From Paracoccus fistulariae (GTDB lineage: Bacteria; Pseudomonadota; Alphaproteobacteria; Rhodobacterales; Rhodobacteraceae), in assembly GCF_028553785.1 (NCBI RefSeq), contig NZ_CP067136.1, positions 496,001 to 560,000 of the forward strand: DNA of 64,000 nucleotides, written 5' to 3'. Of this stretch, positions 47,734 through 61,072 are shown piece after piece; within the stretch, counting starts at the first letter, position 1; every line of letters starts with the position of its first letter. The notes below the pieces were generated by a model. That model saw only the letters and a program-made list of their open reading frames with translations. It was not told the DNA's origin and did not search any database. A program made the translations under genes and the position numbers.

Positions 47734-48129
47734 CTACTTAGAAGCGGTCTCGGCCTCTTGCAGCACCTTGCGGGCGGCGCGGAAACATTCAAGCGCCTGC
47801 GGGACACCGCAATAGATCGCAACGACATGGATGATCGCGCGGATCTCTTCCTGGCTGACACCATTCCGGATCGCGCCCCGGCAATGCAATTCCCATTCCT
47901 GCATCTTGCCAAGCGCGCCGATCATGGCGAGGTTCATCATCGACCGCGTTTTGGGGTCGATCACATCATCGCCCCAGCCAAAGCCCCAACACCAGGCGGT
48001 CATCGCCTCCTGAAAGGGGCGGCTGAAATCATCGGCGGCGGCAAGGTTGCCTTCGACATATTCCGCCCCAAGGGTTGCCTTGCGCTGTTCCAGCCCTTTC
48101 AGGAAAAGATCTTCGTCGAAAATGCTCAT
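47734..48129 (-). CDS. Carboxymuconolactone decarboxylase-family protein
   Basis: A 131-residue all-helical CMD-family protein. The central part WGDDVIDPKTRSMMNLAMIGALGKMQEWELHCRGAIRNGVSQEEIRAIIHVVAIYCGVPQALECFRAARK is close to PcaC but lacks the AhpD CxxC. It is the last of three genes (GntR, DUF1330, this one) on the minus strand beside the putative trigonelline cluster. It might act on a ring-cleavage product, though no reaction can be assigned from sequence. Confidence 0.85.
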   Translation of the reverse strand: MSIFDEDLFLKGLEQRKATLGAEYVEGNLAAADDFSRPFQEAMTAWCWGFGWGDDVIDPKTRSMMNLAMIGALGKMQEWELHCRGAIRNGVSQEEIRAIIHVVAIYCGVPQALECFRAARKVLQEAETASK

Positions 48130-48164: not shown

Positions 48165-48464
48165 TTACCGGATGCCTTCGACGATGAAGACCTCGGCCCG
48201 GCAGGCGTTCTGACGGTGTTCGCGGGCCGCGCGATATTCCTCTGACTCGTAGCAGGCATATGCATCGGCCAGGCTGTCAAACTCGATCACCACATGCCGT
48301 TCCCAGATGCTGCCCTCGCAGATCCGTGTCTCGCCGCCGCGCGCCAGAAAGCGGCAGTTGTATTTCGCGAAGGCCTGCGGCGCCAGCGACTGATACCCGG
48401 CATAAGCCGCGGGGTCGGTGATCGTGACGCGGGCGATCCAATAGGCCTTGGGCTGCGTCGTCAT
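48165..48464 (-). CDS. DUF1330 family protein
   Basis: A 99-residue dimeric alpha-beta barrel-like protein of the DUF1330 family (KAYWIARVTITDPAAYAGYQSLAPQAFAKYNCRFLARGGETRICEG, then VVIEFDSLADAYACYESEEYRAAREHR). The family function is unsettled. Overlaps the GntR gene by 4 bp and is thus part of its operon. Confidence 0.87.
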   Translation of the reverse strand: MTTQPKAYWIARVTITDPAAYAGYQSLAPQAFAKYNCRFLARGGETRICEGSIWERHVVIEFDSLADAYACYESEEYRAAREHRQNACRAEVFIVEGIR

Positions 48465-49147
48465 GTCGGGGTGCCTTCCTGCGCCAACAGCTTCTTGGCA
48501 ACGGCGGTCGCATCGGTCAGATGGTTTTCCACGGCGCGAAAGGCTGCGCGTGGATCGCGGGCAATGATCGCCTCGCAGATCATGCGCATATGGGCGGGGC
48601 CCGAAATCTCGCGGTCGTTGCAGGTCAGGGTCATGATCCGCAGCCGCGAGATACGACCGTTCAGACGCTGCACGACCTCCCAGGCGATGTCATGGCCGGC
48701 ACCTTCGAAGATGACGCCGTAAAATCGGGTCGATGCCTTGAACAGCGCGCCCGGTTCGCGCGCCTTGCTGGCGGATTCCAGATCGGCAAGGGCGGCGCGC
48801 AGGCGGCGTTCCAGATCGGTTGTCATATTCGCGGCACAGGCCATCGCCGCATCGGTTTCAAGCTTGCGGCGTATATCATAGATCTGTCGCGCCTCGGCCC
48901 ATGTCATCCGCGCGACAATGGGCCCACGATGCGGCACATGCTCCACCAGCCCCTCGGCGTCCAGATAGCGCAGGGTTTCGCGTACCACGGTCCGGCTGAC
49001 GCCCAGCTGTTCACACAGCACGCGTTCGACCAGCCGGTCCCCCGGCTTGAAGATACCATCGATGATCGCATCACGCAGTCGGTCCAGCACGACATCTCTC
49101 AATGTCGCGGGCTGCTGATCTATCCTGCTGAGTCCGGCTTGTTCCAT
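48461..49147 (-). CDS. GntR-family regulator (FCD subfamily)
   Basis: A 228-residue regulator: wHTH VVLDRLRDAIIDGIFKPGDRLVERVLCEQLGVSRTVVRETLRYLDAEGLVEHVPHRGPIVA and an FCD effector domain, whose Asp and His residues (such as HDIAWEVV, AHMRMICEAIIARD) usually bind a metal and organic acid. Divergent from the catabolic operon with a palindrome in the 105-bp gap. It probably represses that operon until a pathway intermediate is present. Confidence 0.9.
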   Translation of the reverse strand: MEQAGLSRIDQQPATLRDVVLDRLRDAIIDGIFKPGDRLVERVLCEQLGVSRTVVRETLRYLDAEGLVEHVPHRGPIVARMTWAEARQIYDIRRKLETDAAMACAANMTTDLERRLRAALADLESASKAREPGALFKASTRFYGVIFEGAGHDIAWEVVQRLNGRISRLRIMTLTCNDREISGPAHMRMICEAIIARDPRAAFRAVENHLTDATAVAKKLLAQEGTPT

Positions 49148-49192
49148 GGCGTTTGATTATCAGGGCGGCCCCGCCGCAGCAAGATTGATTGT

Positions 49193-49219
49193 AGGATTGT
49201 ATTACGGTACACCATAATC
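49193..49219. promoter_or_regulatory. Candidate GntR operator
   Basis: TGTATTACGGTACA (49197-49210) is a palindrome with TGTA/TACA arms, flanked by GGATT and AATCC arms. FCD regulators often bind T-G-T-A/T-A-C-A type sites. It lies in the divergent promoter between the regulator and the operon. Confidence 0.5.
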
Positions 49220-49252
49220 CCATAAGACGAATCATCCGAGAGGGGGGGCGGA

Positions 49253-49855
49253 ATGCCGGCTGAAATCCGCAAGACATTGCTGCATGTCGAAGAGACATTG
49301 ATCGAGGGCGGGAAGGCCGCGCCGGTGCCGCTGAAGATGATCGCGGCCGTCGCCGTGATCAAAAATCCCTGGGCCGGTCAGGGCTTTGTCGAGGATCTGC
49401 GCCCGGCCATCCTGGATTGCGCCCCCGGCCTTGGCGCCCTGCTGACAGAGATGATCCTGAAGGCTGCAGGCGGCGGTGAGCATGTCGAGGGTTACGGGAA
49501 ATCGGCCATCGTCGGGACGGATGGCGAGGTCGAGCATGCCTCGGCGCTGATCCACACGCTGCGTTTCGGCAATCATTACCGCGAGGCTGTCGGCGCCAGA
49601 TCGTATCTGGCCTTCTGCAACACGCGCGGCCCGGCCAATGCGCCCCTGCTGATCCCTCTGATGGACAAGAACGATGCCGGCAGGCGCAGCCATTACCTGA
49701 CGATCCAGCTCTCGGTGGCCGATGCGCCCGCAGCGGATGAGATCGTGATCGCGCTTGGCGCCTCGATCGGCGGGCGGCCGCATCACCGCATCGGCGACCG
49801 TTACCAGGATCTGAAAGAGCTTGGCCATGACGTTGAAAACCCTGCCGCTGTCTGA
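49253..49855 (+). CDS. AA_synth (DUF1185) family protein
   Basis: A 200-residue protein of the family called amino acid synthesis protein, for which no reaction is firmly known. It keeps the pattern KMIAAVAVIKNPWAGQGFVEDL, EGYGKSAIVGTDGEVEHASALIHTLRFGNHYREAVGARSYLAF and the C-terminal LGASIGGRPHHRIGDRYQDL. It is the first gene of the catabolic operon and overlaps the next by 29 bp. In the described trigonelline route a conserved hypothetical protein is needed in a late step; whether this is it, I cannot tell. Confidence 0.85.
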   Translation: MPAEIRKTLLHVEETLIEGGKAAPVPLKMIAAVAVIKNPWAGQGFVEDLRPAILDCAPGLGALLTEMILKAAGGGEHVEGYGKSAIVGTDGEVEHASALIHTLRFGNHYREAVGARSYLAFCNTRGPANAPLLIPLMDKNDAGRRSHYLTIQLSVADAPAADEIVIALGASIGGRPHHRIGDRYQDLKELGHDVENPAAV

Positions 49856-50639
49856 TCCCTATGGCTCGGTCGCCTATCGGGCGGCGGGTCAGGGTGAGCC
49901 GGTCGTGCTGATCCACGGCGTCGGCATGCAATCCGCCGCATGGGGCCCCCAGATCAAGGCGCTGTCGCAGACCCACCGGGTGATTGCGCTGGATATGCCC
50001 GGCCATGGCGGCAGCAGCGCCCTGCCACAGGGCAGCACGCTGACCGATTACGTCGCCTGGCTTCATGCGGTGTTGGTTGCGGCTGATGTGGACAGGGTCA
50101 GTCTGGCAGGGCATTCCATGGGGGCGCTGATCGCGGGTGGCTTCGCGGCCAGCCATCCCGGGATGGTCAGCCGTGTGGCGCTGCTGAATGGCGTCTTTCG
50201 CCGCGACGCCCCGATGCGCGCAGCCGTCGAGGCGCGGGCAGCCGCGATCCGCGCGGGGCGGCTTGATACCGAAACGCCCTTGCAGCGCTGGTTTGGCGAC
50301 AGCGATCTTGAGGCATCGGCACGCAGGCAGGTCGCCCAATGGCTGAACGCCGTGGACCCGGTCGGCTATGCGACGGCCTATACTGCCTTTGCCGGTGGCG
50401 ACTCGACCTATGCCGAACGTTTCGGCGCCATTTCCTGCCCCTTGCTGGCGATCACCGGCGACAACGATCCCAATTCTACCCCGGCCATGGCCCGCGCCAT
50501 GGCCGACGCCGCACCGCAGGGCAGGGCCGTCATCGTCGAAGGGCACCGGCACATGGTCAACCTGACCGCGCCGGAGCTGATCAATGCCGAACTGCGCCGC
50601 TGGCTGGAAACCGATTGCACCCTGGAGGAGACGTCATGA
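49827..50639 (+). CDS. Alpha/beta hydrolase, candidate TgnD-type N-methylformamido-methylene succinate hydrolase
   Basis: A 270-residue alpha/beta hydrolase: oxyanion HGVGMQSAAW, nucleophile S97 in GHSMGALIAG, Asp in ITGDNDPNST and His in GHRHMVNL. In the known trigonelline pathway such a hydrolase splits the linear intermediate into methylamine, formate, CO2 and succinate semialdehyde. Context and fold agree, but the substrate is inferred. The start is the ATG after GAAAGAGC; it overlaps the gene before by 29 bp and the reductase gene by 4 bp (ATGA). Confidence 0.85.
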   Translation: MTLKTLPLSDPYGSVAYRAAGQGEPVVLIHGVGMQSAAWGPQIKALSQTHRVIALDMPGHGGSSALPQGSTLTDYVAWLHAVLVAADVDRVSLAGHSMGALIAGGFAASHPGMVSRVALLNGVFRRDAPMRAAVEARAAAIRAGRLDTETPLQRWFGDSDLEASARRQVAQWLNAVDPVGYATAYTAFAGGDSTYAERFGAISCPLLAITGDNDPNSTPAMARAMADAAPQGRAVIVEGHRHMVNLTAPELINAELRRWLETDCTLEETS

Positions 50640-51553
50640 CGCAACACGACCCGCGCGCCCTGCGCAACGCTTTTGGCACCTTCATGACAGGTGTCACCGT
50701 CGTGACTGGCAAGACCGCCGATGGCACGCCGATCGGATTTACCGCCAATTCCTTCACCTCGGTGTCGCTTGATCCGCCGCTTGTGTTGGTCTGCCTTGCC
50801 AACAGATCCAGCAATTTCGACCATTTCGCGGCGGCCGGGGGCTTTGCGGTGAATGTCCTGTCAGAGGAACAGAAAGACATTTCCAACACCTTCGCACGCC
50901 CGGTCGAGGATCGTTTCGCAGCCGTTGACTGGCGCGACGGGCCGCATGGCGCGCCGGTGATCGAGGGGGTGTCGGCCTGGTTCGATTGTTCGATGCACGA
51001 TACCGTCAACGCTGGCGATCATCTCATCCTGATCGGTCGGGTCGAGGCGTTCGATACCAGCCCGGCGCCCGGTCTTGGCTATGCGCGCGGCGCCTATGTC
51101 ACGCCTGCGTTGGAGAAGGCGGCGCTGGAACAGGGCGTGGATGTGGTTCTGGCCGCCCTGATCCGGCGCGAGCACAAGGTGCTTTTGGTCGAGGGCCGCG
51201 ATGGTGCCCTGACCCTGCCCGAGGCGCGCGTCGGCAAGGTCGGCGTCTCGGGCACCCTGGCCGCGCTGCTGGAACGCACAGGCCTGAGCGCCGAGCCGGG
51301 CTTCATCTATTCGGTTTACGACGATGCCATTCGCGGATGTCAGCAGATCACCTTCCAATGCGCCGCCGAACAGGGCGCGCCGGGCATGGGCGCATTCACC
51401 GAACTTGACCCGGCAATGCTCGGCCGCGTCGCCGATCCCGCGATGCGGCAGATGCTGACGCGCTTTGCCGAGGAAACGCGGATCGGAAATTTCGGCATCT
51501 ATTACGGAAATCAGGACAGCGGCCAGGTTCGCAGGGTTTCGGCAGGGGGCTGA
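50636..51553 (+). CDS. Flavin reductase with a Nudix-like C-terminal domain, candidate TgnA-type component
   Basis: Supplies reduced flavin to the monooxygenase next to it. Residues 1-165 are a DIM6/NTAB flavin reductase (LRNAFGTFMTGVTVVTGKTADGTPIGFTANSFTSVSLDPPLVLVCL, NVLSEEQKDISNTFARP). Residues 170-305 look like a degenerate Nudix fold (VVLAALIRREHKVLLVEGRDG, then GVSGTLAALLERTGL where the box has lost its Glu residues), so probably non-catalytic. Normal reductases of this type end near 170. Overlaps the hydrolase by 4 bp and precedes the oxygenase by 4 bp. Confidence 0.87.
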   Translation: MTQHDPRALRNAFGTFMTGVTVVTGKTADGTPIGFTANSFTSVSLDPPLVLVCLANRSSNFDHFAAAGGFAVNVLSEEQKDISNTFARPVEDRFAAVDWRDGPHGAPVIEGVSAWFDCSMHDTVNAGDHLILIGRVEAFDTSPAPGLGYARGAYVTPALEKAALEQGVDVVLAALIRREHKVLLVEGRDGALTLPEARVGKVGVSGTLAALLERTGLSAEPGFIYSVYDDAIRGCQQITFQCAAEQGAPGMGAFTELDPAMLGRVADPAMRQMLTRFAEETRIGNFGIYYGNQDSGQVRRVSAGG

Positions 51554-51557
51554 TGGC

Positions 51558-52595
51558 ATGAAATTCTCACTCTTCGCGCATATGGAGCGGATCTCGGCCG
51601 AACAGGATCAGCGGCGGATCTATGACGAATTTCTGGCGCTGTGCCGGATTGCCGACGAAGGCGGCATGCATGCCATCTGGACAGGTGAACATCACGGCAT
51701 GAATTTCACCATCGCTCCGAATCCGCTGATCAGCCTTGTCGATATTGCCCGACAGACAAGAAATCTGCGGCTTGGCACCGGCACCGTGATCGCGCCCTTC
51801 TGGCATCCGATCCGTCTGGCGGGCGAAGCTGCGATGGTCGACATCATCACCGATGGTCGGCTTGAACTAGGCATCGCGCGCGGGGCCTATAATTTCGAAT
51901 ATGAGCGGCTGCTGCCGGGCCTTGACGCCTGGGGCGCGGGCCAGCGCATGCGCGAGCTGATCCCGGCGGTAAAGGCGCTGTGGAAGGGCGATTATACCCA
52001 TGAGGGCGAATTTTATACCTTCCCCAAGACCACCTCGGCCCCGCAGCCCGTGCAACCGGGCGGCCCGCCGATCTGGGTCGCGGCGCGCGATCCCAACAGC
52101 CATGAATTTGCCGTCTCGCAAGGGTGCAATGTGCAGGTCACGCCACTGTGGAAGGGCGAAGAGGAAATCGCCTTCCTCATGGAGACGTTCAAGGCCGCCT
52201 GCCAGAAATATCCAGACCAGCCCCGTCCCAGGATCATGCTGTTGCAGCACACCTATGTCGCGGACAGCCCGGCGGATGTGAAGGTCGCCGCGCAAGAGCT
52301 GAACCGCTTCTACTGCTATTTCGGCGCGTGGTTCATGAACAAGCGCGAGATCGAACAGGGCCTGATCGCGCCGCTGAGCGATGCGGAAATCGCCGCCCAT
52401 CCCTTCTATTCGCCCGAGGCGATGGAGCGCGATCTGGTCATTGGCGAGCCGCAGGACGTGATCCGCCGGCTGAAGCATTACGAGGCGCTTGGCTATGACG
52501 AATATGCCTTCTGGATCGATTCCAGCATGACATTCGCGCGCAAGAAAGCCTCGCTTCAACGCTTCATCGCCGAGGTCATGCCCGCCTTTCAGTAA
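51558..52595 (+). CDS. LLM-class flavin-dependent monooxygenase, candidate TgnB-type oxygenase
   Basis: A 345-residue bacterial luciferase-like barrel: KFSLFAHMERISAEQDQRRIYDEFLALCRIADEGGMHAIWTGEHHG, TVIAPFWHPIRLAGEAAMVDIITDGRLELGIARGA and the C-terminal VIGEPQDVIRRLKHYEALGYDEYAFW. It should use reduced FMN from the reductase encoded just before. In the trigonelline pathway this type of enzyme cleaves the N-methylnicotinate ring between C5 and C6. The assignment rests on family plus operon composition; other N-heterocycles are possible substrates. Confidence 0.88.
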   Translation: MKFSLFAHMERISAEQDQRRIYDEFLALCRIADEGGMHAIWTGEHHGMNFTIAPNPLISLVDIARQTRNLRLGTGTVIAPFWHPIRLAGEAAMVDIITDGRLELGIARGAYNFEYERLLPGLDAWGAGQRMRELIPAVKALWKGDYTHEGEFYTFPKTTSAPQPVQPGGPPIWVAARDPNSHEFAVSQGCNVQVTPLWKGEEEIAFLMETFKAACQKYPDQPRPRIMLLQHTYVADSPADVKVAAQELNRFYCYFGAWFMNKREIEQGLIAPLSDAEIAAHPFYSPEAMERDLVIGEPQDVIRRLKHYEALGYDEYAFWIDSSMTFARKKASLQRFIAEVMPAFQ

Positions 52596-52604
52596 GAGGT
52601 CACA

Positions 52605-54071
52605 ATGCAGCGCTTTCAGCACTATATCGACGGCGAATTCTTGGACGGATCGGCGCAGTTCGAAAGCCTCGATCCGGCGACCGGTCAGCCCTGGGCGCTG
52701 ATGCCAGAGGCGCGGCGCGACGATGTGAACCGCGCGGTCGATGCCGCCGCGCGGGCGTTCAATGCGCCCGAATGGGCCGACATGACGGCCAGCCAGCGCG
52801 GCAGGCTGCTGATGCGGCTGGCCGATCTGCTGGCCGAAAACGCGCCGCGACTGGCGGCGCTGGAAACCCGCGATACCGGCAAGATCATCCGCGAAACCAG
52901 CGCGCAGATCGCCTATGTCGCGGAATATTACCGTTACTATGCAGGTCTTGCCGACAAGATCGAAGGCGCGCATCTGCCCATCGACAAGCCCGATATGGAG
53001 GTCTGGCTGCGGCGCGAACCGATTGGCGTGGTGGCGGCCATCGTGCCCTGGAATTCGCAGCTGTTCCTGTCGGCGGTCAAAATCGGCCCGGCCCTTGCCG
53101 CGGGCTGCACCGTGGTGCTGAAAGCCTCGGAAGAGGCGCCGGCGCCGCTGCTGGAATTCGCGCGGATCTTTGATCAGGCGGGCTTCCCCAAAGGCGTGCT
53201 GAACGTGATCACCGGCTTTGGTGCGGAATGCGGCGCGGTGCTGACAAGCCATCCCAAGGTGGCCCATGTCGCCTTCACCGGCGGTCCGGACACGGCGCGG
53301 CATATCCTGCGCAACTCGGCCGAAAATCTGGCCTCGACCTCGCTGGAACTTGGCGGCAAATCGCCCTTCATCGTCTTTGGCGATGCGGATATCGACAGCG
53401 CCGTGAATGCGCAGGTGTCGGGCATCTTCGCGGCGACCGGGCAAAGCTGCGTGGCCGGGTCGCGTCTGATCGTCCAGAATTCGATCAGGGATGCCTTTCT
53501 GGATGCGCTGCGCCGCAAGGCCGAAAGCGCGGTGATCGGACCCCCGGACGAGATGGCGACCGAGATCGGACCGCTCTGCACCCTGCGTCAGCGCGAGCAT
53601 GCCATCGGGTTGATCGAACGTTCCGTTGAACAGGGCGCGCGGCTGATCACCGGCGGGCGGGCGCTGGATCGCGAGGGCTTCTATTTCCCGCCCACGATCC
53701 TTGATTGTTCGGCGACGCCCGATGCGCCCTGCGTCACGCAGGAATTCTTTGGCCCGGTGCTGTCGGTCGTCGGCTTCGATACCGAAGACGAAGCGGTCGG
53801 GATCGCCAATGCGACGGAATTCGGTCTGGCGTCTGGGGTCTTTACCCGCGACCTGGCCCGCGCGCATCGCCTGATCCGCCGTATCCGGGCGGGGATCGTC
53901 TGGGTCAACACCTATCGCGCCGTCAGCCCGATCGCGCCTTTCGGGGGCTATGGATTATCCGGACATGGCCGCGAAGGGGGGATCGCGGCGGCGCTGGATT
54001 ACACGACGGTCAAGGCCGTCTGGCTCAGGACAAGCGAGGATCCGATCCCGGATCCATTCGTCATGCGCTGA
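52605..54071 (+). CDS. Aldehyde dehydrogenase, candidate TgnC-type lactol/semialdehyde dehydrogenase
   Basis: A 488-residue NAD(P)-dependent dehydrogenase with N150 (VPWNSQ), general base E248 (LELGGKSPFIVFGDAD) and catalytic C282 (ATGQSCVAGSR). It falls in the betaine/hydroxymuconic-type ALDH group. In the proposed pathway it would oxidise the hydroxybutyrolactone made by ring cleavage to the succinate derivative, or else succinate semialdehyde. Only one such gene is present here, so the other step must be encoded elsewhere. 9 bp after the oxygenase gene. Confidence 0.92.
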   Translation: MQRFQHYIDGEFLDGSAQFESLDPATGQPWALMPEARRDDVNRAVDAAARAFNAPEWADMTASQRGRLLMRLADLLAENAPRLAALETRDTGKIIRETSAQIAYVAEYYRYYAGLADKIEGAHLPIDKPDMEVWLRREPIGVVAAIVPWNSQLFLSAVKIGPALAAGCTVVLKASEEAPAPLLEFARIFDQAGFPKGVLNVITGFGAECGAVLTSHPKVAHVAFTGGPDTARHILRNSAENLASTSLELGGKSPFIVFGDADIDSAVNAQVSGIFAATGQSCVAGSRLIVQNSIRDAFLDALRRKAESAVIGPPDEMATEIGPLCTLRQREHAIGLIERSVEQGARLITGGRALDREGFYFPPTILDCSATPDAPCVTQEFFGPVLSVVGFDTEDEAVGIANATEFGLASGVFTRDLARAHRLIRRIRAGIVWVNTYRAVSPIAPFGGYGLSGHGREGGIAAALDYTTVKAVWLRTSEDPIPDPFVMR

Positions 54072-54098
54072 GCGGGAATGAACGTCAGGGAGGAGCAA

Positions 54099-55757
54099 AT
54101 GACGTCTATCAAACCACCTGTAACGGATCTTGATATCCCGACCGAAGAGAAAGGTTTCTACGAAGGCTTCTCGAAGGCGGTGACGCTTGGATCCAAGGCC
54201 TTGATCGGTATCCTGATCGTCTGGGCCATCGCCGTGCCAGAGAATGCCGGCGCGGTCCTGAGCGGCATCCGTTCGACCATAGATGCCAATACCGGCAGCT
54301 GGTACATGTATGCCATGGCCTTTTACCTGATCGTGTCGATCGCATTGGCCGCCTTGCCCGCAACCGGCCGCATCCGTCTGGGCGGTGCAGAAAGCAGGCC
54401 TGAATTTTCCGCATTTTCATGGATCTCGATGATGATCGGCGCGGGAACCGGCATCGGGATGCTGACATATTCCAGCGCCGAGCCCCTGTTCCATCTGGCC
54501 TCCAACCCCGAAGTGATTATGGGCGAAGCCACCGCCATGGCAGCGGATAATGTGCGCAACGCGATGAAATGGTCCTTCTTCCACTGGGGCCTGTCGGCAT
54601 GGGGATGCTATGCCATGATCGGGCTGGCCCTGGCCTTCTTTGCCTATGTGCGGGGCTTGCCACTGACGATCCGCTCGGCGCTGACGCCGCTCTTCGGGCG
54701 CTCGCTTGAAGGTCCGCTGGGGCATCTGTTCGACATCCTGTCGGTGATCGCCACGGTTCTGGGCGTCGCAGTCACATTGGGCTATGGCGTGTCGCAATTT
54801 GCCGCCGGGGTCCACAATATCACCGGCATGGGCTGGCTGATGAATGACGAGGGCACGCCCACCGTAACGGCGATGCTGGTCGCGCTGCTGATCGTCATGG
54901 GCCTGTCGACAGTGTCCGCGCTGTCAGGGGTCGGCAAGGGCATCAAATGGCTGTCGAATATCAATATGGGCCTGTCCTTTTTCGTCCTGGCCTTCCTGCT
55001 GATCTTCGGTTCGACAATCTTCGCGCTGAAATCGCTGTTCTTGGGGATTTGGGATTATGTCATCGCCATGCCCGGCATGGTGACAACCATCTGGCGCCCG
55101 GACGGTGTCGAGGGCAGCGTGGCCACCCAGCTTGCCGAATGGCAGGGCGCCTGGACGATTTTCTACTGGGCCTGGTGGATCGCCTTCGCCCCCTTTGTCG
55201 GGCTGTTTCTGGCCCGCATCTCGCGCGGGCGGACGATCCGCGAATATGTGCTGGGCGCCATGATCGTCCCGACGATCATCCATTGCGTCTGGTTTTCCTT
55301 CGCCGGCGGCACGGCCATCGACCTGACCCTGAATGGCGGGGCGGGCGATCAGATCACCGGGGCCGGTATCAGCTCGCAACTGTTCGAAATCATCAATTAT
55401 CTGCTGACGCCGGTGCTGGCCAAGATGATGTCCGCCCTGATCGTGGTGCTGTTGCTGACATATCTGGTCACCTCGGCGGATTCGGCGGTGCTGATCGTCA
55501 ACACGATCTCGGCCGCGGGCGATGAAAGCCCCAAGGGCCGGATCCACATCCTGACATGGGGCGCGATCTTCACGCTGGTGATCGGCGGGCTTCTGGTGGC
55601 CGGCGGGCTTGATGCGATCAATACCGCGATGATTATCGGCGCGCTGCCCTTTTCGGTGGTGATGGTGTTGATGGGGGTTTCCCTGATCAAGGCGCTGATC
55701 CGCGACGGCATGCGCAGGCGGCGGGGCGAGGCCGTCAAACCAGAACTTGCGGAATAA
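54099..55757 (+). CDS. BCCT-family betaine/quaternary amine transporter
   Basis: A 552-residue inner-membrane carrier of the BCCT family with 12 helices, the Gly-rich MMIGAGTGIGMLTYSSAEPLFH in helix 3 and the aromatic box region WTIFYWAWWIAFAPFVGLFLARISRGRTIREYVLGA. BCCT carriers move trimethylammonium betaines, carnitine and choline; trigonelline is itself an aromatic betaine. The start is the ATG after GGGAGGAGCAA. It ends the operon, so it probably imports the cluster's substrate. Confidence 0.92.
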   Translation: MTSIKPPVTDLDIPTEEKGFYEGFSKAVTLGSKALIGILIVWAIAVPENAGAVLSGIRSTIDANTGSWYMYAMAFYLIVSIALAALPATGRIRLGGAESRPEFSAFSWISMMIGAGTGIGMLTYSSAEPLFHLASNPEVIMGEATAMAADNVRNAMKWSFFHWGLSAWGCYAMIGLALAFFAYVRGLPLTIRSALTPLFGRSLEGPLGHLFDILSVIATVLGVAVTLGYGVSQFAAGVHNITGMGWLMNDEGTPTVTAMLVALLIVMGLSTVSALSGVGKGIKWLSNINMGLSFFVLAFLLIFGSTIFALKSLFLGIWDYVIAMPGMVTTIWRPDGVEGSVATQLAEWQGAWTIFYWAWWIAFAPFVGLFLARISRGRTIREYVLGAMIVPTIIHCVWFSFAGGTAIDLTLNGGAGDQITGAGISSQLFEIINYLLTPVLAKMMSALIVVLLLTYLVTSADSAVLIVNTISAAGDESPKGRIHILTWGAIFTLVIGGLLVAGGLDAINTAMIIGALPFSVVMVLMGVSLIKALIRDGMRRRRGEAVKPELAE

Positions 55758-57068: not shown

Positions 57069-58493
57069 TCAGGCCTCGCCGCGGCGCTGAAGCAGATCGG
57101 CCTCGACCTTGTCCATCGTCGGACCGTCCAGCCGGTAGAAAACCATCAGAATGGCGGCGCCAAGGAAGAAGAAGGCGGGGATGATGTTCCACATCATGCC
57201 GATGCCCGACAGCGCCTGTTCGGTCTGCTGCTGATCCTTCACGAAGCCATAGTAGCCCAGCACGAATCCGGGAACCGCGCTGCCCACGGCAGAGCCGAAT
57301 TTCAGCGCGAACATGGATGCCGACACGGTCAGCCCGGCGCTGTTGTGACCCGACACCCACTCCCCGTATTCGGCGCAATCCGTATACATCGAAAAGACCA
57401 GCGTGATGATGATCCCGAAGGCGAAGATCCCCACCGCGTAAAGCAGCATGGTCGGCATGAACATGGTGGGCGGGATCATGTAGGTGGCAAAGATCGACGC
57501 GGCGAACAGCAGGTTGCTGCCGATCATCAGCTGACGCTTATCCGCCCATTTCAGCAGCGATGGCGTGACCAACGCGCCCAGAAGCTGCGCGACGAAACCG
57601 CCGGTGATGATCAGCGTCGTGGAATCCATCCACCACAAGGTCTTTTCGGTTCCCAGCGACATATTGTATTTGGTGAAGAAGGCGGTCGACGAAATCCGCG
57701 CGACCAGGCCGACCACGATCAGGATGCTGCACAGCGCAAGGATGATCCAGGACGTGTTGTTGCGCAGGACCGTCAGATCCTCCTTGATGCTGGTGTCATG
57801 CTTTTTGGGGCGCACCCGCTCGGTCGTGGTGAAGAAGGTGAACAGGAACAGGATGACGGTCAGCGTTGCGAATACCAGCACCGCGCCGCGGAAGCCCAGC
57901 AGCTCGTCCCCGCCGCCGATCCAGTCAACCAGCGGCTTGGCCGTCGCGCCAATGATGATCGTGCCCATCGAGGCCATGACAAAGCGGTATTGCGTGGCCT
58001 TGGTCCGCTCGGCCGAGACCGGAGAGATCACCGCCAGAAGGGCAGAATAGGGCACGTTGATCAGGGTATAGCCCAGCATGATCAGCGAATAAGAGACATA
58101 GGCAAAGATCAGCTTGCCCGCCGAGGGAAAGTCGGGACCAAGAAACAGCAGATAACCCAGGGCGGCATAGGGAACCGCGCCCCACAGAAGATATGGCCGG
58201 TATTTGCCCCAACGGGTATCCGTCCGGTCCGCGATGATCCCCATGGCCGGATCGCTGATCGCATCGATCACCTTGGTGACCAGAAACATCGTCGCCACGC
58301 CGGTCGGCGACACGCCCCAGACATCCACATAATAATACAGCAGGAAGATGTTGAAGAATCCCATGTAGAACTGGGATGCCATGTCGCCGCTGCCATATCC
58401 CACCTTTTCCAGGAAGGATAACGGGGCAGTTGCGCTGCCCTTGCGTGGCACGGCGGCCGCGCTTTGATCATTAGCGGTAATACTCACGGTCAA
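57069..58493 (-). CDS. Sugar:cation symporter of the GPH family
   Basis: A 474-residue 12-helix MFS-related transporter of the glycoside-pentoside-hexuronide family. The typical stretches are KVGYGSGDMASQFYMGFFNIFLLYYYVDVWG, KVIDAISDPAMGIIADRTDTRWGKYRPYLLWG (family signature with DP and DRT-x-RWGKYRP) and MYTDCAEYGEWVSGHNSAGL. It should import a di- or oligosaccharide with Na+ or H+. First gene of an operon with the GH68-like enzyme, divergent from lacI-type regulator. Confidence 0.9.
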   Translation of the reverse strand: MTVSITANDQSAAAVPRKGSATAPLSFLEKVGYGSGDMASQFYMGFFNIFLLYYYVDVWGVSPTGVATMFLVTKVIDAISDPAMGIIADRTDTRWGKYRPYLLWGAVPYAALGYLLFLGPDFPSAGKLIFAYVSYSLIMLGYTLINVPYSALLAVISPVSAERTKATQYRFVMASMGTIIIGATAKPLVDWIGGGDELLGFRGAVLVFATLTVILFLFTFFTTTERVRPKKHDTSIKEDLTVLRNNTSWIILALCSILIVVGLVARISSTAFFTKYNMSLGTEKTLWWMDSTTLIITGGFVAQLLGALVTPSLLKWADKRQLMIGSNLLFAASIFATYMIPPTMFMPTMLLYAVGIFAFGIIITLVFSMYTDCAEYGEWVSGHNSAGLTVSASMFALKFGSAVGSAVPGFVLGYYGFVKDQQQTEQALSGIGMMWNIIPAFFFLGAAILMVFYRLDGPTMDKVEADLLQRRGEA

Positions 58494-58900
58494 ATATCTC
58501 CTGTAAATCTGGGTTACATCGAAGGCAGTTCGTCGTGGCTTGTCAGGGTGGCTTCCGGCATCCGAGTTCCGCGCGGAGGTTGCGGCTTCCCTTTTAGTTG
58601 CGCCCCGATAAGGGGCATGGATGGTGGTTGGATCGGCAAAATCCGTCCCCGGCCAGCGCCTTTGAATGCGCTGACCCTGGCCCGGATCCGGGCCCGAAAT
58701 CCTGAAATGAATGGCTCCCCCTCAACCGGCGCCGCATCGCGGTCGAGCACCGCCCCCTCCCAAAGGCGTGGTCTTTCGGCATGATCCAGAGGACGGATGC
58801 CGAACTGTTGATTTGTCGAAGGTTAATGATTTATGACATCGGTGTCAATGCTTGACTGAACCAGCGGGATTGCGTCGAGTAGGAACAGCGAGGGAAGCGA
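58494..58900. other. Divergent promoter region of the sugar cluster
   Basis: 407 bp between the transporter and the LacI-type gene, with no convincing ORF. It holds a 14-bp palindrome near the LacI start (described separately) and a GC-rich central part of no recognised function. Confidence 0.5.
58834..58847. promoter_or_regulatory. LacI-type operator
   Basis: TGACATCGGTGTCA is a near-perfect palindrome with a central CG as expected of LacI-family operators (compare TGACACCGGTGTCA). It is 53 bp upstream of the LacI-type start. A degenerate relative (AGACACCGTTGTGC, 59989-60002) precedes the next glycosidase gene. Confidence 0.65.
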
Positions 58901-59950
58901 TTGCCAACGATTTACGATGTAGCCCGCACGGCCGGAGTGTCGCCCAAGACCGTATCGCGCGTGATCAACCGCGATGCGCTGGTGCGCGACGAGACGCGCG
59001 AGCGGGTTGAAAAGGTGATCGACGAGTTGGGCTATACGCCCTCGCGCGCGGCACGCAGCATGCGGTCCAGCCAGTCCGGGCTGGTCGGCATCCTGACCGG
59101 CGCCATCAATGGCCGCCATTCCGAAGGCGCGGCAAGCGGTCTGCCCGCCTTTCTGATCGTGCAGAAGATCCAAAGCACCCTGGCCGAGCATGGCATCACG
59201 GCCCTGATCTCTGACATCGGGGCGCAGACCGACAAGATCCCGCGGTTCCTGCGCGATCTGGGCGAACACCGGGTCGAGGGCATATTCTATATCGCGCCGC
59301 ATCATCAACGCGTCGCCCTGCCACAGGGCAGCGGCAGCCCTGTCGTGCTGGTCAATGCATTCGACGATCTTGGCACGCCCTGCATCCTGCCCGACGATGC
59401 CACCGGCCAATATGAATTGACTGCCGCCCTGATCGCGCAGGGGCACCGCCAGATCGGCTATCTGACCCTGCCCGAGGATTTCGTCGCGCAGAAATTGCGG
59501 CTGGACGGTCACAACCGCGCGCTGCGCGAGGCCGGGATCGCCCCGGATCCGGGCCTGATCATCATCGGCGATGAAGAAAGCGCCATATCGGAACGCGACC
59601 ACCTGGCCGAGGCCATCGACCGGCTGCTTGCCCGGCAGGATCCGCCGAGCGTGCTGTGCTGTGCGAATGACAGGCTGGCCATTGCCGTATTCGGCATGCT
59701 GCGCGCGCGCGGCGTGTCCGTGCCGGGACAGATGTCGGTCGCGGGCTATGACGATTACCGGGTGATATCGGAAACCCTCTATCCCCAGTTGACCACGATG
59801 GAACTGCCCTATCAGAGCATGGGCGAGGCCGCCGCGCGGTTGATGCTGGGCCAGTTGCGCGGTGAAGAGCCGCTGACACCGGGCACGCGGATCGAGGTGA
59901 AGGGGCAGCTTCGCTGGCGCGCCTCGGTGATCCCCGGCCCGCACAGGTGA
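58901..59950 (+). CDS. LacI-family transcriptional regulator
   Basis: A 349-residue repressor: HTH TIYDVARTAGVSPKTVSRVINRD and hinge ARSMRSSQSG, then a periplasmic-binding-like sugar domain (LVGILTGAINGRH..., VLLCCANDRLAIAVFGMLRARGVSVPGQMSVAGYDDY). Translation starts at TTG with AGGGAAG upstream. Between a transporter operon and a glycosidase gene, it should respond to a fructoside or its breakdown product. Confidence 0.92.
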   Translation: MPTIYDVARTAGVSPKTVSRVINRDALVRDETRERVEKVIDELGYTPSRAARSMRSSQSGLVGILTGAINGRHSEGAASGLPAFLIVQKIQSTLAEHGITALISDIGAQTDKIPRFLRDLGEHRVEGIFYIAPHHQRVALPQGSGSPVVLVNAFDDLGTPCILPDDATGQYELTAALIAQGHRQIGYLTLPEDFVAQKLRLDGHNRALREAGIAPDPGLIIIGDEESAISERDHLAEAIDRLLARQDPPSVLCCANDRLAIAVFGMLRARGVSVPGQMSVAGYDDYRVISETLYPQLTTMELPYQSMGEAAARLMLGQLRGEEPLTPGTRIEVKGQLRWRASVIPGPHR

Positions 59951-60070
59951 CCATCCCCGCAATGCGCCCTTATCCGCAGCCCTGACGCAGACACCGTTGT
60001 GCCAGTCCCGGCGGCTGTCCATCGACAGCGCGCAATATCCTTCCCGCCACGCCACTCAACAGGAGCCTTC

Positions 60071-61072
60071 ATGACAATCGCCTTGGAACATAAATGGATC
60101 TGGGACAGCTGGTATATCCGCGATGGCAAGACCTGGCATGCCTATTTCCTGCAGGCCGACAAGTCGCTGGTCGATCCCGATCTGCGCCATTTCAATGCGA
60201 CGCAGGGGCATGCGACCAGCACCGATCTGGTCAACTGGACCCATCACGGCACCTCGTTCGGACCGGCCGAGGGCCCCGCATGGGACGATTACACGACCTG
60301 GACAGGCTCGGTGGTCAAGGGCGATGACGGGCTGTGGCATCTGTTCTATACCGGATCCTGCCGGGCGGAAAACGGGCTGAAACAGCGGATCGGCCATGCG
60401 ACCAGCCGCGATCTGCACCATTGGGAGCGGGTGGGCGACGGTCTGGCGCTGGATATCGACCATCGCTACGAGGAATTGACGCCCGCGCATTGGCCCGATC
60501 GCGCGATGCGCGACCCCTGGGTCATGCGCGATCCGTCGGGCGAGGGCTGGTTGATGTATTTCACCGCCCGCGTCCCGAATGTGGCCGAGCCGAATGCCGG
60601 GGGTGCCATCGGCTTCGCGACCTCGCCTGACCTGAAGGTCTGGACCCTGCAGGACCCGGTATTCGCGGGCGGGCTGTTCGGCCAGATGGAGGTGCCGCAG
60701 GTGTTTTCGGCCGAGGGCCGTTGGTATTGCCTGTTCTGCACCGATGTTCAGCATTATTCGGCGGGCTACGCGGCCTCTTATCCCGGTGCGCCCGTGCGCG
60801 GGATGCATTATCTGGTGGCCGACGATCCGCGCGGCCCCTGGCAGATTGCGCCCGGCCCGTTTCTGGACGGCGACCCCGCGCTTGACCGATACGCCGCCCG
60901 CATTCTCGATACCGGCGACGGTCTGGCGCTGATGGGGTTTCTGCACAATCCCGGCGGCGGCAGCTTTGTGGGTGAGATCGCCGACCCGGCCCCGGTCGCA
61001 ATTGATGCCGATGGCTGGCTGCGGCTTGACGATCCCGCGCTGGCCGTGCCCCGGACAGCGTCGTTCGCGTGA
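60071..61072 (+). CDS. Cytoplasmic GH32/GH68-like beta-propeller glycosidase
   Basis: A 333-residue clan GH-J-type enzyme without signal peptide. Catalytic residues by pattern: D12 (WIWDSWYI), WTGS at 77-80, D148 in AMRDPWVM and E207 in QMEVPQVF. The WDSW form, instead of WMNDPNG, is like GH68, while length and the EVP motif are closer to intracellular GH32. It is probably a beta-fructosidase acting on sugars brought in by the GPH carrier. AGGAG precedes its ATG; a terminator-like hairpin follows. Confidence 0.82.
   Translation: MTIALEHKWIWDSWYIRDGKTWHAYFLQADKSLVDPDLRHFNATQGHATSTDLVNWTHHGTSFGPAEGPAWDDYTTWTGSVVKGDDGLWHLFYTGSCRAENGLKQRIGHATSRDLHHWERVGDGLALDIDHRYEELTPAHWPDRAMRDPWVMRDPSGEGWLMYFTARVPNVAEPNAGGAIGFATSPDLKVWTLQDPVFAGGLFGQMEVPQVFSAEGRWYCLFCTDVQHYSAGYAASYPGAPVRGMHYLVADDPRGPWQIAPGPFLDGDPALDRYAARILDTGDGLALMGFLHNPGGGSFVGEIADPAPVAIDADGWLRLDDPALAVPRTASFA

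Follow-up and report, generated by a model that had tools for sequence, protein, structure and literature searches.

Which compound is taken up and broken down by an operon that joins a flavin-dependent oxygenase to a betaine-type carrier is the question raised by a stretch of 64,000 nucleotides of Paracoccus fistulariae, positions 496001–560000 of the main contig NZ_CP067136.1 (3.62 Mb of a total genome of 3.72 Mb); this whole stretch is hereafter called the window. Two divergent gene units occupy 47.7–55.8 kb of the window and share one common intergenic gap. We propose that they most probably serve uptake and ring cleavage of trigonelline (N-methylnicotinate), a betaine that contains nitrogen and occurs in plants and phytoplankton. 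A preliminary description of this DNA had already suggested a trigonelline catabolic cluster, and the suggestion is now supported by the gene set, the regulator, its operator and the linkage of a succinate semialdehyde dehydrogenase (SSADH) gene in close relatives. The pathway cluster and its enzyme set are known; the new element is a form fed by a BCCT carrier, with SSADH encoded elsewhere in the genome.

The left unit, on the minus strand, consists of genes for a GntR-FCD transcription factor (48461–49147; PF00392 and PF07729), a DUF1330 protein of 99 residues (48165–48464; PF07045, 108.4 bits) and a PcaC-like CMD family protein of 131 residues (47734–48129; PF02627, 72.9 bits). The right unit, on the plus strand, encodes in this order an AA_synth/DUF1185 protein of 200 residues (49253–49855; PF06684, 228.6 bits), an alpha/beta hydrolase of TgnD type (about 49827–50639; PF00561), a TgnA-type flavin reductase of 305 residues (50636–51553; PF01613 Flavin_Reduct and a C-terminal Nudix-fold domain), a TgnB-type luciferase-like (LLM) FMNH2-dependent oxygenase of 345 residues predicted to open the ring (51558–52595; PF00296, 183.3 bits), a TgnC-type aldehyde dehydrogenase (ALDH; 52605–54071; PF00171, 545 bits) and the BCCT carrier (54078–55757). 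Within each unit the genes overlap or are spaced by at most about 35 bp. Every gene named in the preliminary description is present with an open frame, and Pfam profiles agree with the family types given there. Its view of the DUF1330 and CMD genes as extra has to be revised: they lie together with the GntR gene in one unit, and each is seen again beside related oxygenases, in 51 and 22 of 70 loci, respectively.

The trigonelline oxygenase of Acinetobacter splits the ring at C5–C6, and the Acinetobacter pathway, tgnABCD(E), was reportedly described by Perchat et al. in PNAS in 2018. The TgnB protein of A. baylyi ADP1 is given as Q6F9F6 in a figure legend of PMC11354265. The TgnD-type hydrolase is presumably the enzyme named (N-methylformamido)methylene-succinate hydrolase. 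A tblastn search with the window LLM against plasmids matched 1126 records. Among the 60 plasmid matches listed, only that of Acinetobacter sp. PK01 (NZ_CP094644) carries a tgn name; its tgnB product, annotated as "flavin-dependent trigonelline monooxygenase oxygenase component", is 71.5% identical to the window LLM. The PK01 cluster reads DUF1330, GntR / AA_synth, alpha/beta hydrolase, tgnA, tgnB, tgnC, cytosine permease, hypothetical protein, SSADH, CMD. It thus holds counterparts of eight of the nine window genes (all but BCCT); the order of seven is kept, and CMD comes farther along. On the regulator strand the identities are 49.6% (CMD), 51.1% (DUF1330) and 51.2% (GntR); on the enzyme strand they reach 69.4% for AA_synth and 70.9% for ALDH, with 52.4% for the hydrolase and 48.8% for the reductase. 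The alignments of reductase and LLM to the annotated TgnA and TgnB span nearly their full length; the PK01 hydrolase is annotated as a plain alpha/beta hydrolase without a tgn name. The earlier expectation of closest matches to Tgn proteins rather than to other oxygenases is so far borne out by the values for LLM, ALDH, reductase and hydrolase, together with the low SsuD and SfnG scores given below.

The Acinetobacter cluster shares with the window the reductase, LLM, ALDH and hydrolase, as well as AA_synth, GntR, DUF1330, CMD and the operator, and the same chemistry is expected of both. They differ as follows: PK01 has a permease annotated as cytosine permease (NCS1 type, in our labelling) and a linked SSADH, whereas the window has a BCCT carrier instead, SSADH candidates elsewhere in the genome and CMD behind DUF1330 on the regulator strand. 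Beside the tgn cluster, the PK01 plasmid locus (L117; L numbers denote the loci compared) also carries folD and genes for an ammonium transporter, an aminomethyltransferase and sarcosine-oxidase-like subunits, a set that may deal with the methylamine set free.

A comparable cluster lies on pSymA of Sinorhizobium meliloti 1021 (L217; 426037–443488). Relative to the window, its GntR is 44% identical, AA_synth 78%, hydrolase 55% and reductase 53%; relative to PK01, TgnB and TgnC are each 72% and SSADH 57% identical, and L217 also holds an operator copy. It differs from the window in having SSADH within the stretch; neither DUF1330 nor CMD could be matched there at E ≤ 1e-8 (17 kb searched). PDB entry 3rh7 (SMa0793), whose title, "putative oxidoreductase", gives no function, is probably the reductase of this trigonelline-type cluster.

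Oxygenase relatives in named genomes were represented by the best 80 of 585 found; among other genomes, a match at E ≤ 1e-30 to any clade occurs in 6/61 at the level of the genus, 83/295 of the family, 50/385 of the class and 24/398 of the phylum. In three of the genomes of the same genus the oxygenase copies are identical to those of Paracoccus sp. MKU1, P. methylarcula and P. aminovorans. A quick tree of 104 oxygenase rows places the window in clade M1 (26 rows, SH-aLRT support 99) and further resolves M2 (14 rows, 100), T (18 rows, 85; PK01, Xanthomonas cucurbitae, Lampropedia, Gemmobacter and several Paracoccus) and H (12 rows, 96), the remaining rows being more distant sets. Five more distant loci (L201, L202, L204, L207 and L208) hold LLM clusters at 40–53% identity; their genes are arranged differently, and AA_synth, CMD or BCCT is present in some.

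Gene neighbourhoods were counted in loci that extend 5 kb or more before the oxygenase and 4.5 kb or more after it, assigned to a clade by nearest seed and with near-identical copies kept (39 in M1, 10 in M2, 21 in T and 9 in H). AA_synth is present throughout (39/39, 10/10, 21/21 and 9/9). The gene set is far from a chance assembly because an orthologous GntR accompanies it in all 70 loci of M1 (39/39), M2 (10/10) and T (21/21); clade H has it in 0/9. DUF1330 is no farther than 7 kb from the LLM gene in 25/39 M1, 5/10 M2 and 21/21 T loci (51/70 together), and CMD is found in 13/39, 2/10 and 7/21 (22/70); both are at 0/9 in H. The corresponding counts for M1, M2, T and H are 8/39, 0/10, 11/21 and 0/9 for SSADH, 10/39, 0/10, 2/21 and 0/9 for BCCT, and 0/39, 0/10, 4/21 and 0/9 for the cytosine-permease type.

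The sister clade H shares AA_synth (9/9), hydrolase (8/9), ALDH (8/9) and reductase (seen in 4/9) with the window, and differs in its regulator, the gene beside AA_synth encoding a LysR protein in the three of three loci tested with Pfam (L189, L190 and L193). GntR, the operator, DUF1330, CMD and SSADH were not found in the nine clade H loci. These loci (L189–L193, L197, L198, L205 and L206; also L196) are distributed over Rhodobacteraceae and low-GC stretches of small genomes. The latter include stretches of 30–31% GC (genome sizes 1.4 and 2.2 Mb), whose placement in H is unsure owing to long branches. Positions common to M and T and mostly changed in H number 39 in ALDH, 8 in the hydrolase, 7 in AA_synth and 2 in the LLM; the window carries the M/T residue at every one of them except ALDH A418, which is the residue of H. 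The two LLM positions, N249 and H281, are the same in clade T and altered in most of clade H. Membership of the window in clade H was rejected, since the window has GntR, the operator, CMD and DUF1330. We suspect that the LysR-regulated clade H is a candidate homarine operon.

The shared regulator is matched by a shared site in the divergent gap. An operator consensus, ATGGTATACCAT, was assembled from the commonest words in the GntR/AA_synth gap and counted over the 79 loci with divergent GntR and AA_synth genes, the window included. It occurs with at most one mismatch in 68 of the 79 gaps (M2 11/11, M1 40/44, T 16/23 and one of one unplaced locus) and with at most two mismatches in 76. When 1580 random 200-bp stretches were drawn from these loci, some of them overlapping the true site, 17 and 22, respectively, reached the two thresholds. 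In most rows inspected the operator starts 43–54 bp before AA_synth, the exceptions being L083 (69 bp) and L120 and L118 (93 bp). The three gaps without it at this threshold are those of L007 (five mismatches), L071 and L069 (three each). Eight plasmid loci looked at separately, of which L117, L119 and L120 are also among the 79, have 0–2 mismatches. Clade H gaps lack the operator (0/9, each with at least four mismatches), and one of the five other distant loci, L202, has it at two mismatches.

The window site, the operator-like palindrome ACGGTACACCAT at 49204–49215, differs from the consensus at two positions and lies 49 bp before AA_synth. Per-position base counts were taken over 75 operator sites. 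A relaxed pattern, WYGGTAYACCRW, has its single match in the whole genome exactly at 49204–49215, and a reversed control pattern has four matches. The GntR-FCD protein is the presumed repressor answering to trigonelline or to an intermediate. With regulator, operator and neighbourhood taken together, the trigonelline-type cluster could be distinguished from its sister look-alike in genome surveys.

For the succinate SEMIALDEHYDE, SSADH should follow because the C3 carboxylate must be lost, giving succinate semialdehyde; a route from a C2 carboxylate, as in homarine, needs neither decarboxylation nor SSADH. Both statements are chemical inferences. As had been pointed out earlier for this stretch, no SSADH is encoded here: in a whole-genome search, an SSADH query (E ≤ 1e-60) matches in the window the cluster's own ALDH alone, at 37% identity. 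Two candidates lie elsewhere in the genome, at 2.72 and 3.29 Mb, with 55% and 57% identity to the PK01 SSADH and 64–65% to that of Sulfitobacter L007, and either may serve the pathway. L007 is the closest relative of the window (LLM 86%) and has SSADH after BCCT; in the M1 loci L008, L009, L012, L017, L033 and L050 the SSADH frame opens −9 to +62 bp from the end of BCCT. Free-standing SSADH genes of Acinetobacter L117 and Ruegeria L040 each have their own operator copy. Since SSADH is linked in several close relatives and not in most loci, we treat it as a variable and not a defining feature of the cluster. Within about 10 kb of one of the two candidates, the P. fistulariae genome has a further BCCT gene, 31% identical to that of the window (L137; 3.283–3.302 Mb), possibly marking a second betaine-type locus.

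That the operon ends with a BCCT carrier, as described earlier, is confirmed by PF02028 (483.1 bits) and by a Trp-rich motif, FYWAWWIAFAPF. The three closest solved BCCT proteins have FYWAWWIAWAPF, FYWAWWIAWSPF or FFWAWWVAWSPF there, and the second F of the window motif stands where these have W. We take the third Trp of the motif to be part of the betaine cage. The carrier is the presumed trigonelline importer; a literature search confined to titles turned up none on BCCT import of trigonelline. It is 81% identical to the BCCT at the same place in L007. A second BCCT type, 33–40% identical to the first, takes the same place in ten M1 and T loci (L008, L009, L011, L012, L017, L033, L040, L050, L059 and L062), mostly with SSADH next. 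L014 has a third type on the opposite strand, and Thioclava L213 the second. The loci of Acinetobacter, Xanthomonas, Lampropedia and Pantoea carry a permease annotated as cytosine or allantoin permease, and those of Gemmobacter, Pelagibacterium and some Paracoccus and Rhizobium an ABC importer, followed by SSADH in R. etli; many M1 and M2 loci have no recognised importer beside the core. This suggests that the ring-opening core is retained and the importer exchanged, between two BCCT types, the cytosine-permease type and ABC.

Several residues of the cluster proteins are well kept. ALDH C282 and E248 and the hydrolase G97-x-S99-x-G101 motif and H244 (numbering from the TTG at 49821) are conserved in more than 98% of aligned rows, and E78 and H82 of CMD are invariant in 25/25 cluster proteins, the window included; CMD scores 119 bits against the PcaC model, below the cut-off of 155.7. 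In the reductase model, 142 residues (17–161) superpose with the HPAH reductase C1 (PDB 5zc2 and 5zyr) at a root-mean-square deviation of 1.4. C1 is likewise a two-domain reductase, but the alignment stops at residue 161, and the C-terminal part of the modelled reductase matches Nudix folds. This C-terminal domain seems to lack the catalytic Nudix box. In 16 of 101 loci (L020, L032, L034, L036, L038, L039, L041, L043, L080, L084, L100, L101 and L113–L116) the hydrolase and the flavin reductase share one open frame, a possible gene fusion; the L101 junction, as displayed, is without any Met.

We hypothesize that the BCCT carrier would bring in the trigonelline zwitterion, and that the LLM oxygenase, supplied with FMNH2 by the reductase, would open the ring. 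The product would be the N-formyl-N-methyl enamine aldehyde, which equilibrates with a hydroxybutyrolactone. ALDH would oxidise this aldehyde to its acid and the hydrolase would take off the formyl group, after which hydrolysis of the enamine would release methylamine. Loss of the C3 carboxylate would give succinate semialdehyde, to be oxidised by an SSADH encoded elsewhere. For AA_synth we propose an auxiliary role at the enamine or imine that deformylation leaves behind, and for CMD the decarboxylation itself or assistance with this final step. GntR-FCD would repress both divergent units from their shared palindrome until trigonelline or an intermediate binds.

Several observations weigh against this assignment. 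The tgn gene names rest on the annotation of one record, PK01, whose reductase (49%) and hydrolase (52%) the window proteins resemble moderately. SSADH is absent from the window, no operator match (at most two mismatches) was found at either genomic candidate, and the linkage of SSADH in M1 and M2 and of CMD in all three clades is low. L007, the closest relative, is without the full operator, and the sequence surrounding the site is only partly kept there. A search for a methylamine route found none, the glutamine-synthetase III model falling below its cut-off and the control of the mau search being uninformative. Finally, clade H groups with M (54 rows, SH-aLRT 95), so that the window LLM is nearer to H than to the Acinetobacter proteins of T.

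This last point bears on homarine (N-methylpicolinate), which would be degraded by the same chemistry to dehydro-N-methylglutamate and then to N-methylglutamate or to 2-oxoglutarate and methylamine, without SSADH. We consider homarine an unlikely substrate of the window operon. The clade of the window is mostly composed of Rhodobacterales, whose genera in it usually live in the sea. A conserved bacterial homarine pathway in which Mgd takes part is in print (Ferrer-Gonzalez 2026, as cited in PMC13390433), and rapid drawdown of homarine by R. pomeroyi is stated in another report (PMC12817926). However, GntR, the operator and, in several loci, CMD and SSADH are common to the group of the window and the tgn-annotated cluster and were not found in any of the nine clade H loci, a LysR gene is the regulator in all three H loci tested, and the C2-carboxylate route would need neither decarboxylation nor SSADH. 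A published study (PMC8269262) names TgnA/TgnB as the opener of the trigonelline ring, argues that their action on homarine is unlikely and gives growth of R. pomeroyi DSS-3 as poorer on homarine than on trigonelline; according to a later correction (PMC10134881), the homarine standard of that study was contaminated with picolinic acid.

Slightly less probable still is an LLM set for another N-alkylpyridinium or N-heterocycle, such as N-methylisonicotinate or N-methylnicotinamide, with the BCCT a general osmolyte carrier there by chance. Sequence alone does not reveal the substrate, four other BCCT genes are present in the genome, and BCCT is present in a minority of M1 and T loci; against this stand the high identities to the tgn-annotated cluster, the BCCT of L007 at the same place and the second type at that place in ten loci, mostly next to SSADH. 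It is very improbable that the LLM belongs to an alkanesulfonate, sulfone or F420-type system and that the accessory genes serve some unrelated pathway. LLM families are broad, and the NCBIfam LLM subfamily models shown all match the window protein weakly, but every one stays below its cut-off, among them SfnG for dimethylsulfone oxygenase (46.5 bits, cut-off 382.95) and SsuD (22.7 bits, cut-off 518.2), the alkanesulfonate alternative raised in the preliminary description, and the operon shows synteny with the cluster annotated tgn. The Rut pyrimidine pathway, with RutA (LLM), RutF (reductase), RutC (Rid-type) and RutD (hydrolase), works alike in combining LLM ring opening with a flavin reductase, an alpha/beta hydrolase and a small helper. 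Membership in it was rejected: no RutA model is among the 25 best of 28 families for the window LLM, and RutF (92.9 of 254.75 bits) and RutD (71.6 of 238.5 bits) are far below cut-off.

Under the preferred trigonelline assignment, what remains of most interest is the regulon defined by the operator, the helpers that have no assigned step, and the sister clade under LysR control. A further-reaching reading, which we offer tentatively and consider possible though doubtful, is that the published four-enzyme route is incomplete. AA_synth would be a dedicated enamine or imine hydrolase acting after deformylation, and the C3 version would add the PcaC-like CMD as the decarboxylase forming succinate semialdehyde. 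The LysR-regulated sister, acting on a C2 carboxylate (homarine), would need no CMD or SSADH, and a dead, substrate-sensing Nudix domain would gate the flavin reductase. The recurrent helpers AA_synth, DUF1330 and CMD and the Nudix-fold tail of the reductase are now directly testable.

The surroundings of the cluster look unrelated. In the window from 43 kb on, the flanking genes on one side are of radical-SAM/lipoyl-synthase, TerC and LysR types, and beyond the cluster (57069–61072) lies a sugar-utilisation set with an MFS_2 sugar transporter, a LacI regulator and a GH32-type gene.

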